From NCBI RefSeq assembly GCF_017355525.1, contig NZ_CP067395.1, positions 2,914,001 to 2,978,000 on the forward strand: DNA of 64,000 nt. The letters run 5' to 3'. Both the position numbers and the translations under genes were made by a program. The notes under the pieces are model-generated. The model was given only the letters and a program-made list of their open reading frames with translations. It did not search any database and was not told the origin of the DNA. This document shows, one piece after another, positions 36,711-43,306 of the stretch (the stretch's first letter is position 1; each line of letters opens with the position of its first letter). The DNA is from Lysobacter enzymogenes (GTDB lineage: Bacteria > Pseudomonadota > Gammaproteobacteria > Xanthomonadales > Xanthomonadaceae).

Positions 36711-37745
36711 TCACGAGCTCACCGTCACCCGCCAGCAACGCTTGCCCTGCTGGACCCAGTCGATCTCCACCGGCAGGAACTTCTCGATCAGACGCGCATT
36801 GCTGGACAGATGATCGCTGACGAAGGCGGTGGTGAACTCGCCGCCACCGGCCAGCGCCATCGGCAACAGCAACTGGTCGGACAGGTATTCGCCGACCGCC
36901 GCATCCGAGCTCAGGTACTCGGACACGCGCCGCGCGAGGCCGACGGCGATCTGCTCGGCGCCGACGCCGCGCTCGCCGAGCGCGTCGAACAGCTCGGTGT
37001 GCTGGCCTTCGCCGTCGACCCGCAGCATCAGCACGTTGGCCGGGCTCTGCGCAGTCGGCGCGCGGCGCAGCTGCAGCGCGTCGGGGCCCAGCTTCAACTG
37101 CTCGGCCAACACCTGCAGCTCGCGCTGGCCGATCGAGTCGGCCAGCGAGGCCAGCAACGCGGTCGCCTGCAGGCGCGGCGCGGGGTCGCGCTCGACGAAA
37201 CTCGCCTCGCGCAAGGCCGCGCCCGGCGCGATCCGCAACTGCACGCACCCGCCGCCGGCCGGGAAGAAACCGTGCCGCTGCAGCGCGAACGAAGCGTCCA
37301 CGCCGAAACGGCGCAGCGCCGGCAGATAGCACTCGGCCAGGAAGTCGGCGCTGGGCGCGAGCGGGTTGTGGGTGCCGCCTTCCACGATCAGCTCCGACGC
37401 CGCAGCGCAGGACCACAGCGCCGGCAACACCGTCTGCAACACCAGCGTCGCCGAACCGGCGGTGCCGATCGAGAAGCGGTAGCGGCCGGGCTGGACCTGG
37501 CCGGGCACGAAGCGCAGCGTGGTAGCGCCGAGCTGGGCGCCGTCGACGTAGGCGCGGCCGATCTGCGCGGCCGCGCCGACCGCGGTGAGGTGCTGGCGCA
37601 TCAGGCCGGGGCGCTTGCGCTTGGCGCGGATGTGCTGCATCTCGAACGCGGTGCCGGTGCACAGGCTCAGCGCCAGCGCCGTGCGCAGCAGCTGGCCGCC
37701 GCCGCTCGCGCCGCTGATTTCGATCATTTCCATTTTCTTGTCCAT
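36711..37745 (-). CDS. rtcA: RNA 3'-terminal phosphate cyclase
   Basis: Converts RNA 3'-phosphates to 2',3'-cyclic phosphates through an adenylated His, preparing ends for RtcB. The 344-residue product has 'EISGASGGGQLLRTALALS', 'RAKRKRPGLMRQHLTAV' and the nucleotidylated His312 in 'FVSDHLSSNARLIEKFL'. The start at 37745 has GAGAAAG upstream; the longer frame is unsupported. It is the last gene of the ro60-Y RNA-rtcB-rtcA island, 118 nt after rtcB. Confidence 0.93.
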   Translation of the reverse strand: MDKKMEMIEISGASGGGQLLRTALALSLCTGTAFEMQHIRAKRKRPGLMRQHLTAVGAAAQIGRAYVDGAQLGATTLRFVPGQVQPGRYRFSIGTAGSATLVLQTVLPALWSCAAASELIVEGGTHNPLAPSADFLAECYLPALRRFGVDASFALQRHGFFPAGGGCVQLRIAPGAALREASFVERDPAPRLQATALLASLADSIGQRELQVLAEQLKLGPDALQLRRAPTAQSPANVLMLRVDGEGQHTELFDALGERGVGAEQIAVGLARRVSEYLSSDAAVGEYLSDQLLLPMALAGGGEFTTAFVSDHLSSNARLIEKFLPVEIDWVQQGKRCWRVTVSS

Positions 37746-37863
37746 GGTCTTTCTCGCGCGCGCGGGCTCCGCCGCGCGCTGTCGTTTCCTTTCGTGGTTC
37801 GGTGCGGGCGGCTTGCGCAGCCCGCGGTACTGGTTGAATTCGCCGCTCGCATCCATTCGTCGC

Positions 37864-39093
37864 TCAACCCTTCACGCAGACGACTTGACGCAAGGTGTGC
37901 ACGATCTCGACCAAATCGCTCTGCGCGGCCATGACCGCGTCAATCGACTTGTAAGCGGCCGGCGATTCGTCGACCACTTCGGCGTCCTTGCGGCATTCCA
38001 CGTGCGCGGTGGCGCGGGCGTGCTCCTCCAGGCTGATGCGCTTCTTCGCCTCGGTGCGGCTCATCACGCGGCCGGCGCCGTGGCTGCAGCTGTGGAAGCT
38101 GTCGGCGTTGCCGAGGCCGCGCACGATGAAGCTCTTGGCGCCCATGCTGCCCGGGATGATGCCGAGCTCGCCCTTGCGCGCGCTGACCGCGCCCTTGCGC
38201 GTCACCAGCACGTCCTTGCCGAAGTGATGCTCGCGGTTGACGTAGTTGTGATGGCAGTTGACCGCCTCGGCCTGGGCCTCGAACGGCTTGGCGATGGCCT
38301 TGCGCGCCGCCTCGACGACGTGCCGCATCATGATCTCGCGGTTGCTGCGCGCGAACCGCTGCGCCCAATCGACCGCGAACACGTAGTCGTCGTAGTGCTC
38401 GCTGCCTTCCGGCAAGTACGCGAGGTCCTGGTCCGGCAGGTTGATCATCCAGCGGCGCATGTCCTGCTTGGCCAGCTCGATGAAGTGGCTGCCGATCGCG
38501 TTGCCGACGCCGCGCGAACCCGAGTGCAGCATGAACCACACGCGCTGTTCCTCGTCCAGGCAGACTTCGACGAAGTGGTTGCCGGTGCCCAAGGTGCCCA
38601 GGTGGTTCAAGTGGTTGCTGCGCTCGAGCTTGGGATGCTTGGCGACGATGCGGTCGAAACCCTCGTGCAGGTTTTCCCAGGCCTGCAGCGACGCCGCCGG
38701 CGGGTTCGCCCACGCGCCTTTGTCGCGCTGGCCTCGGCCGATGGTGCGGCCGTGCGGCACGGCTTTTTCGATCGCCGCGCGCAGCGGGCCGAGCTGATCC
38801 GGCAGATCGCTCGCGACCAGGGTGGTGCGCACCGCGATCATGCCGCAGCCGATGTCCACGCCGACCGCCGCCGGCACGATCGCGCCGAGGGTCGGCACCA
38901 CCGAGCCCACGGTCGCGCCCTTGCCCAGGTGCACGTCGGGCATCACCGCGATCCAGCGGTGCACGAACGGCAGCTTGGCGATGTTGCGCAGCTGCTGGCG
39001 CGCTTCGTCTTCGAGCGGTACGCCGCGGGTCCAGTGCTTGATCGGCACCGAGCCCGGGTCGTGGATGACGTCGTAGTTGGCGTTTGCGTTCAT
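37864..39093 (-). CDS. rtcB: RNA ligase RtcB (3'-phosphate/5'-hydroxyl ligase)
   Basis: Joins RNA ends left by metal-independent ribonucleases, using GTP and Mn2+. The 409-residue length equals the E. coli enzyme. Metal and active-site residues are present: Cys83 in 'VDIGCGMIAVRT', 'TLGTGNHFVEV' (171-173), 'NCHHNYVNREHHFG', and the guanylylated His338 in 'SFHSCSHGAGRVMSR'. The start at 39093 is favoured over the longer frame by the AGGA upstream and by homology. It follows the Y RNA array by about 140 nt and is expected to be driven by the RtcR-dependent sigma-54 promoter upstream of ro60. Confidence 0.96.
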   Translation of the reverse strand: MNANANYDVIHDPGSVPIKHWTRGVPLEDEARQQLRNIAKLPFVHRWIAVMPDVHLGKGATVGSVVPTLGAIVPAAVGVDIGCGMIAVRTTLVASDLPDQLGPLRAAIEKAVPHGRTIGRGQRDKGAWANPPAASLQAWENLHEGFDRIVAKHPKLERSNHLNHLGTLGTGNHFVEVCLDEEQRVWFMLHSGSRGVGNAIGSHFIELAKQDMRRWMINLPDQDLAYLPEGSEHYDDYVFAVDWAQRFARSNREIMMRHVVEAARKAIAKPFEAQAEAVNCHHNYVNREHHFGKDVLVTRKGAVSARKGELGIIPGSMGAKSFIVRGLGNADSFHSCSHGAGRVMSRTEAKKRISLEEHARATAHVECRKDAEVVDESPAAYKSIDAVMAAQSDLVEIVHTLRQVVCVKG

Positions 39094-39235
39094 GGGTGCA
39101 GTTCCTGCTGTTCGGGCTTCGTGCCCGTGGCTCGGTCGAGCCGGTGAGATCGGATTCGTAGACATTCAAGAGCGCGGCCAGCGCATGCGCCGGGCCGCGG
39201 ATGCGGCTGATACAGAAAACGCTACGCACGGAGAC

Positions 39236-39300
39236 GAGGATGCGGCGGACACGTTCAAACGGTCAGGTTTATGTAGTCCGCCGCGCATTCGCCGCGCGGG
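39236..39300 (-). ncRNA. Minimal Y RNA-like unit (copy 4, no tRNA-like module)
   Basis: Read on the minus strand, GCGGCGGAC at the 5' side pairs with GTCCGCCGC at the 3' side, around ACTACATAAACCTGACC and TTTGAAC. It has the same 5' box (GCGAATGC then GGACTACA) as the three other copies but lacks the T arm, acceptor-like stem and D arm. It is the unit closest to rtcB. Confidence 0.5.
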
Positions 39301-39309
39301 GCGTCAAAG

Positions 39310-39450
39310 GGTGCGGCCGTCCTGCGACCAGGTTTGGCGGAACGTTTTCCCTGTGCTCTCCCACTGAGCTACCGTCGTTACAGTCCGTGACGGGCGGGAG
39401 TCGAACCCGCGACCGCAGGGGTACGATGTAGTTCCACCGGCATTCGCCGG
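39310..39450 (-). ncRNA. Bacterial Y RNA-like unit with tRNA mimic (copy 3)
   Basis: On the minus strand: box GCGAATGCCGG, helix strand GGTGGAAC, ACTACATCG, T arm GCGGG-TTCGACT-CCCGC, acceptor-like stem CCGTC/GACGG with a longer 12-nt loop, D arm TAGCTCAGTGGGAGAGC, then helix strand GTTCCGCC. The T arm before D arm order rules out an ordinary tRNA and matches YrlA. It shares GGTCGCAGGACGGCCGCACC downstream with copy 2. Confidence 0.7.
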
Positions 39451-39479
39451 ACGACCGCGTAAACAAGCAAATCAAAAAC

Positions 39480-39625
39480 CGAAACATCGAGACCGAAGGT
39501 GCGGCCGTCCTGCGACCAAGGACGTGGAACGTCTTCCTCGGGCTCTGACGCTGAGCCGCCGTCTTGCGACGTGGTCGGGTTCGAAGCCGACCGCAAGGTT
39601 CATGTAGTTCCGACAGCATTCGCAG
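39480..39625 (-). ncRNA. Bacterial Y RNA-like unit with tRNA mimic (copy 2)
   Basis: On the minus strand: box GCGAATGCTG, helix strand TCGGAAC, ACTACATG, a degenerate T arm GGTCGG-CTTCGAAC-CCGACC, stem CGTC-GCAA-GACG closed by a GNRA tetraloop, D arm GGCTCAGCGTCAGAGCC, helix strand GTTCC. It ends with TCTCGATGTTTCGGTTTTT, shared in near-identical form with copy 1 and possibly a processing or termination signal. Confidence 0.7.
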
Positions 39626-39661
39626 AACAACCGCATAAACCGAAAACAAAAAACCGACACA

Positions 39662-39781
39662 TCGAGACCAGTGGCGACGGAACGTTTCCTGCTCTAACCA
39701 ACTGAGCTACCGCCTTGCGGCGGGCGGGACTCGAACCCGCGACCCGGACATTAATGGTGTAGTTCCGCCAAGCATTCGCGA
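39662..39781 (-). ncRNA. Bacterial Y RNA-like unit with tRNA mimic (copy 1)
   Basis: On the minus strand: box GCGAATGCTT, helix strand GGCGGAAC (39769-39762), ACTACACC, T arm GCGGG-TTCGAGT-CCCGC (39740-39724), acceptor-like stem CCGCC/GGCGG closed by GCAA (39715-39718), D arm TAGCTCAGTTGGTTAGAGC, then helix strand GTTCCGTC (39683-39676) pairing over 8 bp with the first strand. This is the YrlA architecture: a tRNA-like domain whose acceptor stem is capped and whose free ends lie where the anticodon arm would be. It is the best-formed copy. Confidence 0.78.
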
Positions 39782-39801
39782 TGCGTCGGCCGCCCAACCG
39801 G

Positions 39802-39961
39802 GCCGGCGGGCCCTATCGCCCGCCGGCGTCTTCCCTGCGCCGCCCCGCACCTCCGTGGCGCGTGCGGCCGGCGGGCCGTCCTGGCCCGCCGCGCGGATGC
39901 GATCCGTGCATCCACGTCGCGGCGCGTCCTTGCGCCGCTGCGGCGACTTCCGTGTCGCCGC
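39802..39961 (-). ncRNA. Chain of six hairpins with GGA-containing loops, 3' of ro60
   Basis: On the minus strand, stems of 5-9 bp follow each other almost without spacers: 39961-39940 (loop ACGGAA), 39938-39919 (AAGGAC), 39913-39895 (ACGGATC), 39890-39870 (AGGAC), 39861-39837 (loop starting ACGGAGG) and 39827-39802 (CGATAGGG). Loop ANGGA repeats are the mark of CsrA/RsmA-binding RNAs. The region starts 24 nt after the ro60 stop and ends before Y RNA copy 1. It has no plausible coding frame of its own. Confidence 0.5.
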
Positions 39962-39985
39962 TTGTCGCTGCTCGGCAGCCCAGCC

Positions 39986-41536
39986 TCACAACGGTATCGA
40001 TCCGATCCGCTCGGCCCAGCGCGCGCTGTCGCCGCCCTGCGCGGCGAACACCGCGATCAGGTCGAACACCGCGTCGCTGAAACCGCCGACGTGCAACACG
40101 TCGGCCGACTCCACGGTCTGCGCGGTCGCCACCGGCTGCAAGTCGATGCAGACCAGCCGCGCCTGCGGGTTGCGCGCCTTGATCTGCGCCCACTCGCGCA
40201 TGGTCGCGGTCGCGCCGCCGTGGCGGGTGTCGCGCCAGCTTTCGTTGTCGGACACCAGCACCATCAGGTCGACCTTGGCCTTGCTGCGGTTCAACTCCGC
40301 GAACGGCGCGCTGACCGAGGTGCCGCCGCCGCACAACGCGGCGAGCTGACCGGCCTGGGTCATGACGCTGTCGCGCGGGTTCAAGCGCAACGGCCGCACT
40401 TGGGTGTCGAACGGCAACACCCGCGCGCCCGGGTTGCTGCGCTGGATGCAGGCGGCGATCAACGCCGCCACGTCCACGCAACGCACCTTGCTGGTCGCGC
40501 CGGGGCGGTAACCGGTGACCGGCGAGCTCATCGAGCCCGACACGTCGACCGCCACCACCACCGCGCCGTCCAGCGTCGGCACCTGCCGGGTCGCGATCTC
40601 CATCGCGTCCTGCAAGGCTTCCAGGATCGGCGCCGGCAAGCCGGCACCGGCGCTGTACGCGCTCATCAGCTGGTACGGGAACACCCGCCCCCGGCCGATC
40701 GCTTCGGCGTCGGTCAACCGCGCCGCCACCTCGACCACCATCGCCGGGTCGTCGAACACGCCGTTGCGCTGCAAGGTGTTGAGGTTCATGCGCAGGCTCT
40801 GCCACGACATGCTCCGCGCCAACTGCGCCCACTGCGCCGCACTCAGCGGCAGCGAGCTGAAGTGCTGGAACGGCAGCTTCGGCAGCGGCCCGGACGGATC
40901 GCGCTTGAACGCCTCGTACGCGCGCACCGGCGCCGGCAACGCCGACTCGTCGCAGGGCTTGCCGATCAGCCAGGCGTACAGCGCGGCGCGCTGCGCGTCG
41001 GCCGGCTTCGGCCGGACCATCTTGATCACGTCGGCGAGCGAGGGATCGTTGCCGACCGCCGCGGCCAGCAACTGCTCGACCGAGGCGTTCTGGATCCACT
41101 GCCGCACCAGCCGCTTCGGCCGCGAGCCCAGCGAACGGCGGCCGACCCGGCCGCTGCGCAGGATCTGCACGAAGTTGCGCAGCATGCGGCCGTTGTCGAT
41201 CACCTGGCCGAACGCGCGCTCCATCGACTCGCCGTCGCGCAGGCTCAGGCTGGCCAGCAACAGCGCCGGCATGTCCTTCATGTGGCCGCGCTGGCGGGCG
41301 TAGACCGCGGTCTTGGCGACGAACTCGGCATCGACCGCGGCGCTGAGCTGGAGCACGTAATCGAGCTGCTCGCCGGCGCTGGCGTAGAAGGTGCCGTTCA
41401 AGCAACCGGTGGCCGCGTACAGCGCCAGCGCCGACTCGGGACGACGGGCGTAGGCCACGCCGCCGGCCTCGTTGCGCACGCGCGCCGCCGGAGCCAGGCG
41501 GCTACGGAGGGAAGCGAAGAGCGAAGTGTTGGCCAT
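39986..41536 (-). CDS. rsr: Ro60 orthologue (Rsr), TROVE and vWA domains
   Basis: Ring-shaped RNA-binding protein that holds the ends of misfolded or damaged RNAs and is gated by Y RNAs. The 516-residue product has the TROVE HEAT-like region (about 1-310, 'FVAKTAVYARQRGHMKDMPA', 'NFVQILRSGRVGRRSLGSRP') and a vWA domain with an intact MIDAS motif Asp331-x-Ser333-x-Ser335 ('VAVDVSGSMSS') and 'CGGGTSVSAPF'. The start at 41536 has AAGGAA upstream and lies downstream of a sigma-54 promoter at 41574-41589, which excludes the longer frame. The island ro60-Y RNAs-rtcB-rtcA resembles the rsr-yrlBA-rtcBA operon of Salmonella. Confidence 0.92.
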   Translation of the reverse strand: MANTSLFASLRSRLAPAARVRNEAGGVAYARRPESALALYAATGCLNGTFYASAGEQLDYVLQLSAAVDAEFVAKTAVYARQRGHMKDMPALLLASLSLRDGESMERAFGQVIDNGRMLRNFVQILRSGRVGRRSLGSRPKRLVRQWIQNASVEQLLAAAVGNDPSLADVIKMVRPKPADAQRAALYAWLIGKPCDESALPAPVRAYEAFKRDPSGPLPKLPFQHFSSLPLSAAQWAQLARSMSWQSLRMNLNTLQRNGVFDDPAMVVEVAARLTDAEAIGRGRVFPYQLMSAYSAGAGLPAPILEALQDAMEIATRQVPTLDGAVVVAVDVSGSMSSPVTGYRPGATSKVRCVDVAALIAACIQRSNPGARVLPFDTQVRPLRLNPRDSVMTQAGQLAALCGGGTSVSAPFAELNRSKAKVDLMVLVSDNESWRDTRHGGATATMREWAQIKARNPQARLVCIDLQPVATAQTVESADVLHVGGFSDAVFDLIAVFAAQGGDSARWAERIGSIPL

Positions 41537-41573
41537 CGGGGCATTCCTTGGTTCGGGACTTGCCAGGACTAGA

Positions 41574-41589
41574 GCAATGACCGTGCCAA
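41574..41589 (-). promoter_or_regulatory. Sigma-54 (-24/-12) promoter of the RNA repair operon
   Basis: On the minus strand TTGGCACGGTCATTGC: TGGCAC, five bases, TTGC, an excellent match to the sigma-54 consensus. It sits 38 nt upstream of the ro60 start codon and next to the divergent gene for the sigma-54 activator RtcR. Transcription should start about 12 nt beyond the -12 element. Confidence 0.88.
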
Positions 41590-41614
41590 CTTTTCCGGAG
41601 CAACACCAACCGAT

Positions 41615-41631
41615 TGATTTAAAAGAAATCA
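41615..41631. promoter_or_regulatory. Candidate RtcR upstream activating sequence
   Basis: A perfect 6-bp inverted repeat, TGATTT and AAATCA separated by AAAAG, lies 26 nt upstream of the -24 element in an AT-rich patch of the ro60-rtcR gap. It is a plausible enhancer for RtcR or an operator for rtcR itself; with one copy seen, the evidence is limited. Confidence 0.4.
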
Positions 41632-41716
41632 GATGAAATACGACCGTCGGCACTCGTCAGCAGACCCGATCCGTTTCTATACTTGAATATACGAATTTAT
41701 CTGATCGGATATCCCC

Positions 41717-43306
41717 ATGAAGCGCCAGGTCGTCATCGGCATGCTCGGCACCCAGCTCGACGCCGCCTCCGGCGCCGGGCGCTGGGAGAAGTGGCGTCCG
41801 ACCGTGTCGCTGGGCATGCACGAGGACTTCCTGCTCGACCGCATGGAGCTGCTCGCCGACGAGCGCCGCTTCGCCAAGCTCGCCGGGCAGGTCGCCGCCG
41901 ACCTCGTCCAGGTCTCGCCGGAAACGCAGCTGCGCCGCCACGACCTGTACCTCAACGATCCCTGGGACTTCGAGACGGTCTACGGCGCGCTCGACGACTT
42001 CGTCCGCGGCTACGAGTTCCGCCCGGACGAGGAGGACTACTACGTCCACATCACCACCGGCACCCACGTCTCGCAGATCTGCTGGTTCCTGCTGGCCGAG
42101 AGCCGGCTGTTCCCGGGCCGGCTGTTGCAGACCGTGCCGCCGCGCAAGCAGGACGGCCGCTCGCCGGGCGGTTTCGCGGTCATCGATCTGGACCTGTCGC
42201 GCTACGACCGCATCGCGCAGCGTTTCGCCGAACAGCGCCTGCACGATCGCGACCTGCTCAAGAGCGGCATCGCCACGCGCAACCCGGCCTTCAACCGCAT
42301 GATCGAGCAGATCGAAACCGTGGCCACGCGTTCGAAGTCGCCGCTGCTGCTGATGGGCCCAACCGGCGCCGGCAAGAGCCAGCTGGCGCGGCGCGTGTTC
42401 GACCTGAAGAAGCAGAAGCATCAGCTGCCGGGCCGCTTCGTCGAGGTCAACTGCGCGACCCTGCGCGGCGACGGCGCGATGAGCACGCTGTTCGGCCATA
42501 TCAAGGGCGCCTACACCGGCGCCTCGGCCGACCGCGCCGGCCTGCTGCGCTCGGCCCACCAGGGCCTGCTGTTCCTCGACGAGATCGGCGAACTGGGCCT
42601 GGACGAGCAGGCGATGCTGCTGCGCGCACTGGAAGAAAAGCGCTTCCTGCCGGTCGGCGGCGACAAGGAAGTGGAGAGCGATTTCCAGCTCATCGCCGGC
42701 ACCAACCGCGACTTGCAGGTCAGCGTGCTGGAAGGCCGCTTCCGCGAAGACCTGCTGGCGCGCCTGAATTTGTGGACGTACCGGTTGCCCGGCTTGGCCG
42801 AGCGCGCCGAGGACATCGAACCGAACCTGGAGTTCGAACTGGAGCGGCACTCGCGCGAGAACCACCAGCGGGTGACCTTCAACCGCGAGGCGCGCGAGCG
42901 CTACCTCGCCTTCGCGCTCAGCGGCGAGGCCAGCTGGAGCGGCAATTTTCGCGATCTCGGCGCCTCGGTGATGCGGCTGGCGACGTTGGCCGAGGGCGGG
43001 CGCATCCGCGCCGATCTGGTCGACGAGGAGATCGGCCGGCTGCGCGCGCAATGGCACGGCGCGCGCCCGGCTTCGCTGCTGGACGAAGCGCTCGGCGCGC
43101 AGGCCGCGCAGCTCGACCGCTTCGATCGCGTGCAGCTCGACGACGTGCTGAGCGTCTGCCGGCGCAGCAAGAGCCTGTCGCAGGCCGGCCGCGAGCTGTT
43201 CGCGGTGTCGCGCGCGAGCAAGGCCAGCAGCAACGACGCCGACCGGCTGCGCAAATACCTCGCGCGCTTCGGCCTGGATTGGGAACGCGTGCGCGGGTCG
43301 GGCTGA
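41717..43306 (+). CDS. rtcR: Sigma-54-dependent activator RtcR
   Basis: Activates the RNA repair operon. The 529-residue product has an N-terminal CARF-like regulatory domain (about 1-180, 'RQVVIGMLGTQLD', 'YYVHITTGTHVSQICWFLL'), an AAA+ domain with Walker A 'GPTGAGKS' (214-221), the sigma-54-contact loop GAYTGA at 264-269 (a common variant of GAFTGA), Walker B 'LLFLDEIGELG', an arginine-finger segment 'GRFREDLLARLNLW', and a C-terminal HTH region. In RtcR the CARF domain holds the ATPase off until a damaged-RNA ligand binds. It is divergent from ro60 with about 180 nt between them. Confidence 0.95.
   Translation: MKRQVVIGMLGTQLDAASGAGRWEKWRPTVSLGMHEDFLLDRMELLADERRFAKLAGQVAADLVQVSPETQLRRHDLYLNDPWDFETVYGALDDFVRGYEFRPDEEDYYVHITTGTHVSQICWFLLAESRLFPGRLLQTVPPRKQDGRSPGGFAVIDLDLSRYDRIAQRFAEQRLHDRDLLKSGIATRNPAFNRMIEQIETVATRSKSPLLLMGPTGAGKSQLARRVFDLKKQKHQLPGRFVEVNCATLRGDGAMSTLFGHIKGAYTGASADRAGLLRSAHQGLLFLDEIGELGLDEQAMLLRALEEKRFLPVGGDKEVESDFQLIAGTNRDLQVSVLEGRFREDLLARLNLWTYRLPGLAERAEDIEPNLEFELERHSRENHQRVTFNREARERYLAFALSGEASWSGNFRDLGASVMRLATLAEGGRIRADLVDEEIGRLRAQWHGARPASLLDEALGAQAAQLDRFDRVQLDDVLSVCRRSKSLSQAGRELFAVSRASKASSNDADRLRKYLARFGLDWERVRGSG

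Follow-up and report, generated by a model that had tools for sequence, protein, structure and literature searches.

A probable circularly permuted tRNA-like Y RNA with an anticodon-like arm in the RNA-repair operon of Lysobacter enzymogenes

Why do RNA-repair operons carry Ro60 together with Y RNAs that mimic tRNA? The window analysed here, a 64,000-nucleotide stretch of the Lysobacter enzymogenes genome, raises this question with a locus in which four Y RNA-like units lie between ro60 and the genes rtcB and rtcA, with rtcR divergent (rtcR<>ro60–[four units]–rtcB–rtcA). According to the available part of PMC7790460, RtcR binds 5′ tRNA fragments that arise from cuts in anticodon loops, and Salmonella RtcR is induced by tRNA 5′ fragments bearing a cyclic phosphate; the arms of the bacterial Y RNA tRNA mimic named in the available part of a review (PMC8394870) are the D, T and acceptor arms alone. 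Our reading, to which we give a probability of about 0.6, is that the locus is an RNA-repair operon controlled by RtcR and sigma-54, with four Y RNA units of which the first is a permuted whole tRNA, likely a decoy or sacrificial site.

An RNA-repair operon with four Y RNA-like units

The sequence-only reading had proposed an RNA repair island of ro60, Y RNA-like units, rtcB and rtcA with a divergent rtcR, and both profile matches and relatives back it (Table 1). RtcA, RtcB, Ro60 and RtcR each exceed the Pfam cut-off for their own domain, and NCBIfam names RtcA and RtcR above cut-off; the NCBIfam Rsr equivalog stays below its cut-off for the window Ro60 (105 bits versus 900), and the window RtcB reaches none of the cut-offs of the RtcB-family equivalogs. 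For rtcA, the ATG at 37745 was our choice in a reading frame that opens at 37856, and the part searched with profiles was 36714-37763. All the elements of the rsr-yrlBA-rtcBA operon are present (divergent RtcR, sigma-54 promoter, ro60, Y RNAs, rtcB, rtcA), so that the window shares RtcR/sigma-54 control, Ro60, Y RNAs, RtcB and RtcA with Salmonella; it differs in having four units, where the family has two to six, and in that the type of module varies between units. The same layout is common to all 33 Ro60 loci found in 395 genomes of the family: rtcR, ro60 and rtcB keep their order in every one, the sigma-54 promoter lies upstream of ro60 in 33/33 when up to two mismatches are allowed, and rtcA is present in 32, the remaining locus being a 5-kb contig. 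Since two to six units per interval are usual in the family by our own scan, the array is not specially expanded, contrary to what had been supposed. The structured RNA region described next to ro60 (39800-39983) is real.

Table 1. Features of the locus, in positions of the window
Feature	Position	Strand	Evidence
rtcA, RNA 3′-terminal phosphate cyclase	36711..37745	-	PF01137 242 bits; NF003246 397 bits (cut-off 352)
rtcB, RNA ligase	37864..39093	-	PF01139 436 bits
Unit 4: Y RNA-like stem of minimal form, no tRNA module	39236..39296	-	5′ box GCGAATGC and 9-bp stem
Unit 3: Y RNA; T arm, acceptor hairpin (12-nt loop), D arm	39315..39455	-	Rfam YrlA 65.0 bits, E 2.1e-14
Unit 2: degenerate Y RNA; T-like arm, GCAA-capped hairpin, D-like arm without GG	39500..39635	-	Rfam YrlA 28.5 bits, E 7.7e-4
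Unit 1: Y RNA of class A1 with an entire tRNA module, circularly permuted	39655..39788	-	Rfam YrlA 67.5 bits, E 4.1e-15
Unit 1, U8-A9, D arm and positions 26-28	39688..39709	-	
Unit 1, acceptor-like hairpin, CCGCC-GCAA-GGCGG	39710..39723	-	
Unit 1, T arm	39724..39740	-	
Unit 1, variable loop, positions 44-48 (GGGTC)	39741..39745	-	tRNA-numbering parse
Unit 1, positions 42-43 (CC), paired with 27-28 (GG, 39688-39689)	39746..39747	-	pair covaries in relatives
Unit 1, anticodon-like arm, ACA-CCATTAA-TGT (tRNA 29-31, 32-38, 39-41)	39748..39760	-	fixed-geometry pairing
ro60 / rsr (TROVE + vWA)	39986..41536	-	PF25045 62.6 bits, PF05731 30.2 bits, both above Pfam cut-off
sigma-54 promoter TGGCACG-GTCA-TTGCT, upstream of ro60	41573..41588	-	exact match
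rtcR, sigma-54 activator with RtcR regulatory domain	41717..43306	+	NF038308 808.7 bits (cut-off 650)

The Y RNA-like units claimed at 39236-39781 stand, through Rfam YrlA matches of E 4e-15 and 2e-14 to units 1 and 3 and a layout shared by relatives. The search with the YrlA covariance model (RF02553, cut-off 69 bits), which had been suggested as a check, reports no window unit at the gathering threshold: units 1 and 3 fall slightly below it at 67.5 and 65.0 bits, unit 2 scores 28.5, and unit 4 is unmatched. In unit 1 an 11-nt insertion at the anticodon-like arm costs score. The R1 model gives 82.5 bits for unit 3, 43.2 for unit 2 and 115.8 for unit 1, the last not being independent because unit 1 belongs to R1's own alignment. 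Compared with shuffles as single strands, units 2 and 4 have low folding energies (z -2.96 and -2.78); units 1 and 3 fold no better than shuffles (z 0.86 and -0.58), so that the covariance model and the relatives carry the case for them. Matches in the region to Rfam Xoo2 (22.2 bits, E 0.087), tRNA-Sec and other Rfam models were taken as chance.

The conserved box GCGAATGC noted earlier does occur in 4/4 units, at their 5′ side. The helix GGAAC/GTTCC holds for units 1-3, its place being taken by GGAC/GTCC in unit 4. The order of T before D, which had been assigned to three units, is clear in units 1 and 3 (T arm, acceptor-like hairpin, D arm) and is kept in unit 2 in a degenerate form, with a T loop of 8 nt and a D loop without GG. 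GCAA caps the acceptor-like hairpin in units 1 and 2, as had been seen, and a 12-nt loop does so in unit 3, which retains a 5-bp anticodon stem (CAGGG/CCCTG; stem count 5) and has no anticodon loop. Unit 4, judged by its 5′ box and stem alone, would count as a Y RNA, and has counterparts in relatives (L045.4-L048.4, L042.3-L044.3 and L049.3). With YrlA (RF02553; Salmonella YrlA, PDB 6CU1) the window units share the Ro60-binding stem with GCGAAUGC and a 3′ box, the permuted T-acceptor-D module, and a site beside ro60 and rtcBA. We presume that the units are expressed and bind Ro60.

An anticodon-like arm in unit 1 and its relatives

Overlooked in the sequence-only reading was a 13-nt hairpin of unit 1 (3 bp, 7-nt loop), placed between the Ro-binding stem and the T arm and treated by the Rfam YrlA model as an insertion. 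Its position suits an anticodon arm in tRNA numbering, and its first two letters double as the end of a conserved CTAC. We define class A1 by a linker of 34-39 nt and a 3-bp/7-nt hairpin at the geometry fixed by tRNA, a loop of the form YUNNNRH being usual and not defining; class A2, exemplified by unit 3, corresponds to the Rfam YrlA consensus and lacks the anticodon loop. In that consensus AUGC and the T arm are separated by 23 nt without a hairpin, whereas in A1 units the distance is 34-39 nt and includes the anticodon-like arm. Unit 1 has the A1 geometry (linker 35 nt, 3/3 pairs), and its loop, CCAUUAA, fails the YUNNNRH rule with C rather than U at position 33; folded alone, unit 1 does not form the arm. 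Class A1 would then read, in tRNA numbers, as 29-41 (anticodon arm), 42-48, T arm, acceptor strand, cap, acceptor strand, U8-A9, D arm and 26-28, the Ro60-binding stem being inserted between positions 28 and 29, in the anticodon stem's 5′ strand. Unit 1 is no standard tRNA, being permuted and closed at the acceptor, in contrast to the linear acceptor-D-anticodon-T-acceptor order with a free CCA end. Algae and archaea have circularly permuted tRNA genes whose products mature into working tRNAs; these share the shifted start with unit 1, which differs in its loop-closed acceptor and in the Ro60 stem within its anticodon stem. The tRNA-like domain of tmRNA, named in the available part of PMC8394870, is likewise a partial tRNA mimic with T and acceptor parts, the difference being that tmRNA becomes charged and works on ribosomes, whereas the acceptor end is not free in A1 units.

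The arm is conserved and covaries in relatives. When 120 units were parsed by linker distance alone (three, at 39 nt or more, fall in neither class), all three arm pairs formed at the fixed geometry in 63/69 units with linkers of 34-38 nt and in 0/48 with linkers of 33 nt or less; an earlier long-linker set had omitted window.3 and L042.2 by hand, the hairpin being absent in both. Across 68 distinct joined modules, an alignment that keeps the L045 row despite its misparsed D arm, the arm stem is paired in 94.1% of cells, compared with 55.3% in shuffled and 15-28% in slid versions, and carries 65 double-changed cells versus 16.5, spread over all three pairs; for the whole tRNA structure, pairing is 97.9% versus 81.3%. 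RNAalifold recovered the 3-bp/7-nt hairpin unaided from the joined-module alignment and found no anticodon-like arm in a MAFFT alignment of whole units. Over all loci the stem takes 14 different sequences and covaries. On a Ro60 tree of 73 rows, of which the seven without a fully paired arm were left unlabelled, it changes at least 22 times (66 labelled rows, 11 stem types); because only fully paired arms were chosen as labels, this tree bears on changes of stem sequence and not on pairing itself. The outer pair, 29-41, is contested: where position 41 is not U, its partner is 29 in 29/41 cases and the base after 28 in 19/41. No such rival pairing exists for the inner two pairs.

Other parts of the module agree with a tRNA plan. 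A D loop GG and UA at positions 8-9 are found in 125/127 A1-length units, and the Rfam YrlA alignment treats exactly the 13-nt hairpin as an insertion in L216 (Variovorax) and L233 (Cardiobacterium). Among A2 units, 50/72 keep at least two pairs from 27:43 inward and 15/72 keep none. With default settings ARAGORN calls a tRNA in 37/37 un-permuted A1 modules versus 0/37 in native order (the first A1 alignment held 36 of the 37 units, L068.2 being omitted for an extra hairpin). We do not take this as proof of an anticodon arm, since arm-shuffled controls are still called in 630/740 cases, un-permuted A2 units in 11/24, and native-order units in 5, 23 and 24 of 37 under relaxed thresholds.

Of the 55 distinct loops in fully paired arms, 38 follow the anticodon-loop rule YUNNNRH and 17 fail it; within-loop shuffles gave a mean of 4.6 and a maximum of 14 in 2000 runs, and at the same positions of A2 units the rule holds in 1/52. 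Position 38 is never G in loops of fully paired arms. U35 is nearly invariant in the family (18/19 distinct loops) but occurs in only 33/55 of the wider set, and the triplets vary, in 27 kinds that change at least 43 times along the Ro60 tree. Several loops are identical to real host loops (Lys CUU and UUU, Asp GUC, Arg UCU and ACG, Met CAU, Asn GUU). Mimicry of specific tRNAs is nevertheless rejected for now: measured against the tRNAs of the window genome alone (42 isoacceptors), loops are identical in 7/54 cases, where 4.8 are expected from column make-up (P 0.18) and 6.1 under triplet permutation (P 0.41).

The arm is found in Proteobacteria, Verrucomicrobia, Planctomycetes and Acidobacteria, as well as in 3/37 viral contigs, where it is fully paired in 3/9 A1-length units. 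Named genomes have an A1-length unit in 72/80 Ro60 loci and a fully paired arm in 65/80, with A1-length and A2 units side by side in 27/80. A1 arms also occur where the flanks lack rtc genes (L203; L262 is a truncated locus). A tally of R1 matches in 357/398 genomes was rejected, as those below about 55 bits resemble neighbouring tRNAs; its follow-up covered matches stronger than about 55 bits and a few others. Matches at E ≤1e-11 occur in 17/233, 8/369 and 27/398 genomes, the weakest being doubtful. Because the arm is paired, covaries, mostly obeys the loop rule and is widespread, it seems that many Y RNAs of bacteria mimic a whole tRNA in circularly permuted form, all four arms included. The available parts of PMC7790460, PMC8394870, PMC6340977, PMC11472068, PMC7824862, PMC7765460 and PMC8058203 contain no anticodon arm of a bacterial Y RNA; we claim no priority.

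Possible roles of the arm

We propose that the Ro60-bound Y RNA would act as an unchargeable tRNA surrogate, shown to proteins acting on tRNA, with an anticodon loop that is probably generic rather than codon-specific. Its main targets may be anticodon nucleases whose products switch on RtcR, and the Y RNA would thus serve as a decoy or as a sacrificial site mendable by RtcB; if real in cells, A1-type RNAs could substitute for tRNAs under attack. Most A2 units retain at least two anticodon-stem pairs without the loop, and unit 4 has no tRNA part at all. According to the available part of PMC7790460, the authors of the RtcR study suggested that YrlA might competitively inhibit the nuclease, and they saw no YrlA fragments, implying that YrlA is not cut by the Salmonella nuclease. 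From the Rfam consensus alone, Salmonella YrlA appears to be of the A2 type; if it follows that consensus, it lacks the anticodon loop that A1 units have. Since A1 units own such a loop, the idea of nuclease competition is directly testable with arm-plus and arm-minus RNAs. Nuclease recognition and repair of A1 units can be taken further, in a version we consider doubtful: the loop would be nicked or bound by nucleases, and RtcB would re-seal it or RtcR would read the cut end, so that the Y RNA would act as a gauge of tRNA damage built into the repair operon. The Ro60-held stem and the short arm would then hold both ends together after nicking, and such a gauge would cover a large share of bacterial Y RNAs and some from viral contigs.

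Among the alternatives, one that is possible though on the unlikely side is that the hairpin is an element of a three-way junction, setting the angle between the Ro60-bound stem and the tRNA-like module, with a 7-nt loop that docks on Ro60, PNPase or the module and never meets anticodon enzymes. A stem free in sequence and constrained in pairing, the variable triplets and the absence of copies of specific tRNA loops are all consistent with such an element; Y32, U33, R37 and the exclusion of G38 are, however, anticodon-loop rules that a spacer hardly explains, and the pairing of 27-28 with 42-43 extends a tRNA anticodon stem. We consider it improbable that the locus is a plain YrlA array, whose mimic tethers Ro60 to PNPase or attracts TruB or DusA while the hairpin persists as a tolerated remnant of a permuted tRNA. 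This would agree with known YrlA work (available part of PMC8394870), with the Rfam matches of units 1 and 3 and with the coexistence of both classes in named loci, but selection on the arm is favoured by the double changes that preserve all three pairs and by the repeated turnover of the stem along the Ro60 tree. That the region is degenerate tRNA-derived sequence devoid of RNA genes is disfavoured and highly improbable: neighbouring tRNA genes do match YrlA and R1 weakly, since a T arm there precedes the next D arm, but the 5′ and 3′ boxes, Y stems and array position are conserved over 33 loci and beyond, and no tRNA is called in the array region.

On this reading, the public Rfam YrlA model leaves out a conserved arm. 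The five units with a fully paired A1 arm in a set of five loci score above its cut-off in two cases (77.5 and 74.7 bits) and below it in three (68.1, 56.1 and 52.5), the latter in company with unit 1 of the window.

The repair island in the window and in its family

Profile matches identify RtcA, RtcB, Ro60 and RtcR as the sequence-only reading of the window had them (the window is part of a single-contig, 5.9 Mb genome that by Ro60 lies nearest to Lysobacter among named records), and the four Y RNA-like units that it described are borne out: four 5′ boxes (GCGAATGC) lie in the ∼0.9 kb between ro60 and rtcB, each followed by a stem, which is GGAAC/GTTCC in units 1-3 (counted from ro60) and stands alone in unit 4. 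In a covariance search with the Rfam model of the tRNA mimic YrlA, units 1 and 3 gave strong matches and unit 2 a weak one, all under the Rfam cut-off. An exact sigma-54 promoter precedes ro60 (Table).

Ro60 was present in 33 of 395 family genomes, the window genome counted. All 33 loci share a divergent rtcR, then ro60 with a sigma-54 promoter of at most two mismatches before it, and, 312-1656 nt further on, rtcB; rtcA is visible in 32, the 33rd being a contig of 5 kb. A 5′-box scan of these intervals gave 117 candidate units, 2-6 per interval, including one that is clearly spurious (L058.3, unit 3 of locus L058) and missing some that look real. The array of four is thus ordinary in the family. 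The earlier account of a complete Ro60-Y RNA-RtcBA island is confirmed as an observation and supported as an interpretation, though its expanded form is nothing special here. Within one array, units with T, acceptor and D arms are mixed with units that have a hairpin and T arm without a D arm, and with bare stems.

Coordinates of features in the window genome
Feature	Position	Strand	Remark
Hairpins in series	39800-39983	-	between ro60 and unit 1
Sigma-54 promoter	41588-41573		TGGCACGGTCATTGCT
Adjacent tRNA genes	G000:C1:1910716-1911139		weak YrlA matches

An anticodon-like arm in class-A units

Inspection of class-A units, which combine a T arm and a D arm with an acceptor hairpin, showed a short hairpin that has a loop of 7 nt and separates the Ro60-binding stem from the T arm: ACA-CCAUUAA-UGU in the window and AGC-CUCUUAA-GCU in the Xanthomonas relative L066 (contig shared with L195). 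Counting back from the T arm in tRNA numbers, through a variable loop of 5 nt (44-48), 42-43, 39-41, the loop (32-38) and 29-31, places this hairpin as an anticodon arm, and positions 27-28, the two bases after 26, pair with 42-43. Read in this way, the unit is predicted to be a whole tRNA, circularly permuted, with the 5′ strand of its anticodon stem interrupted by the Ro60 stem. Among 25 distinct family arms, a set from which two units were excluded by hand, 73 of 75 cells were paired at the tRNA-set geometry, versus 3-67% at 62 other settings of loop and offset.

Parsing from the arms and 5′ box alone yielded 120 class-A units in 66 loci. AUGC-to-T-arm distances have a bimodal distribution, with 48 units at ≤33 nt (A2, short linker), 69 at 34-38 nt (A1, long linker) and 3 longer, and all three pairs 29-31:39-41 form in 63/69 A1 units versus 0/48 A2 units. 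Of the six exceptions, two have a 6-nt loop, two lack the arm, one forms only two of the three pairs, and one is a unit of another class that was misparsed. Once joined, the modules give 68 distinct sequences, in which 94.1% of anticodon-stem cells are paired, versus 55.3% when shuffled, a control that treats related sequences as independent, and 15-28% when slid; 65 cells are double-changed. The outer arm pair is rivalled by the base after position 28; the inner two have no such rival, and are paired in 64 and 66 of the 68, with 33 and 18 double changes. RNAalifold finds the same hairpin unaided on joined modules; it is absent from the RNAalifold result on an unjoined MAFFT alignment, and folding unit 1 by itself does not show the arm. 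A Ro60 tree of 73 rows, 66 of them labelled, each by a fully paired arm, requires a minimum of 22 changes in the arm stem and of 43 in the triplet.

In the Rfam YrlA consensus AUGC and the T arm lie 23 nt apart, which is the A2 form. Against it, A1 units of Variovorax and Cardiobacterium show a 13-nt insertion that is exactly the hairpin, and unit 1 of the window an 11-nt insertion. A review likens the YrlA domain to D, T and acceptor arms (PMC8394870), and PMC11472068 describes the Salmonella YrlA entry 6CU1 as circularly permuted relative to tRNA. Its predicted anticodon-like arm puts unit 1 in a wide class of RNAs that mimic a complete tRNA in permuted order, and the arm-bearing variant is new if the primary YrlA literature does not already describe the arm.

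The loop and a proposed role

Fully paired arms have 55 distinct loops, with a pyrimidine at position 32 in 51, U33 in 47, a purine at 37 in 50 and G38 in none. YUNNNRH fits 38 of them (mean 4.6, maximum 14 in 2000 within-loop shuffles) and 1/52 equivalent places of A2 units; the window loop, with C at position 33, does not fit. Triplets are of 27 kinds, among them several that begin with A and are not usual bacterial anticodons. Mimicry of a given tRNA was set aside for the present, as the loops matched those of the host's own tRNAs, taken from the 42 isoacceptors that ARAGORN read, no more often than column make-up gives. With the loop rule kept and host identity at column level, the predicted arm loop imitates anticodon loops in general and no particular tRNA.

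According to PMC7790460, RtcR binds 5′ tRNA halves with a cyclic phosphate, and most of the tRNAs mapped were cut in the anticodon loop, 3′ of position 36 or 37; its authors suggest that YrlA might inhibit the nuclease by competition. The A1 unit may supply the loop that an anticodon nuclease reads; a nick there would leave both ends held together by the Ro60 stem and the arm, and the nicked unit could be a natural substrate of RtcB. L203, a full-length locus with Ro60 and A1, has no rtc genes in its flanks, which counts against a tight link between A1 and rtc.

Distribution and neighbouring features

Named genomes were scanned with the Ro60 alignment, taking the best 80 of 570 relatives, a sample that leans to near relatives, and parsed as before with the 3′ box added and A1 length taken as 34-39 nt; loci L188-L212 mostly duplicate genomes already in use. 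Among these best 80, class-A units occur in 75, an A1-length unit in 72 and a fully paired arm in 65; all three pairs form in 74/86 A1-length units versus 1/37 A2 units, and 4 further A1-length units have a 6-nt loop. Among the matches listed, fully paired arms occur in Variovorax, Acidovorax, Massilia, Dyella, Tahibacter, Mesorhizobium, Inquilinus, Neisseria elongata and Cardiobacterium hominis, and in metagenome-assembled Verrucomicrobia, one planctomycete and Acidobacteria; Labrys has 6-nt-loop or partly paired forms only. Class-A units were also found in 14 of 37 viral contigs bearing Ro60 (9 units of A1 length, 3 fully paired), and rtcR, rtcB and rtcA like those of the window were absent from the flanks in all 37.

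The structured RNA region previously noted beside ro60 proved to be strong hairpins in series. GGA occurs in 5/7 of its loops (ACGGAA, AAGGAC, ACGGATC, AGGAC, ACGGA; mean 0.66, maximum 3 in 50 shuffles), and 9 loci of the genus have 3-5 such loops each, the 3 of locus L045 equalling the shuffle maximum. The series looks like a CsrA/RsmA-binding RNA, a prediction from loop motifs; the window genome has one CsrA match. Adjacent tRNA genes, in this and other genomes, give weak YrlA matches because the T arm of one tRNA precedes the D arm of the next, and could give rise to false YrlA annotations.

Another class of Y RNA, whose units tend to be the last ones before rtcB (L039.1/.3, L051.3, L053.4, L060.4, L064.4, L068.4 and others), has a hairpin such as CCCTTCGGGG immediately 5′ of the T arm, then a long hairpin, and no D arm; it resembles the variable arm together with the T arm of class II tRNAs. 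At L052 a protein-gene-like stretch, read by eye at ∼1010-1480 of the interval, splits the array between two units. In family f12, three loci (L170, L174, L187) combine rtcR, rtcB and rtcA with Y RNA-like units and show no match to ro60 within ∼14 kb; the units of L187 are seen in L095, and G629, the genome of L174, has a second locus, L156, with ro60. In another class of the same phylum, the RtcB that follows the Y RNA array of Ro60-RtcR loci (L175-L178, L181) is highly divergent, at 25.6-27.2% identity.
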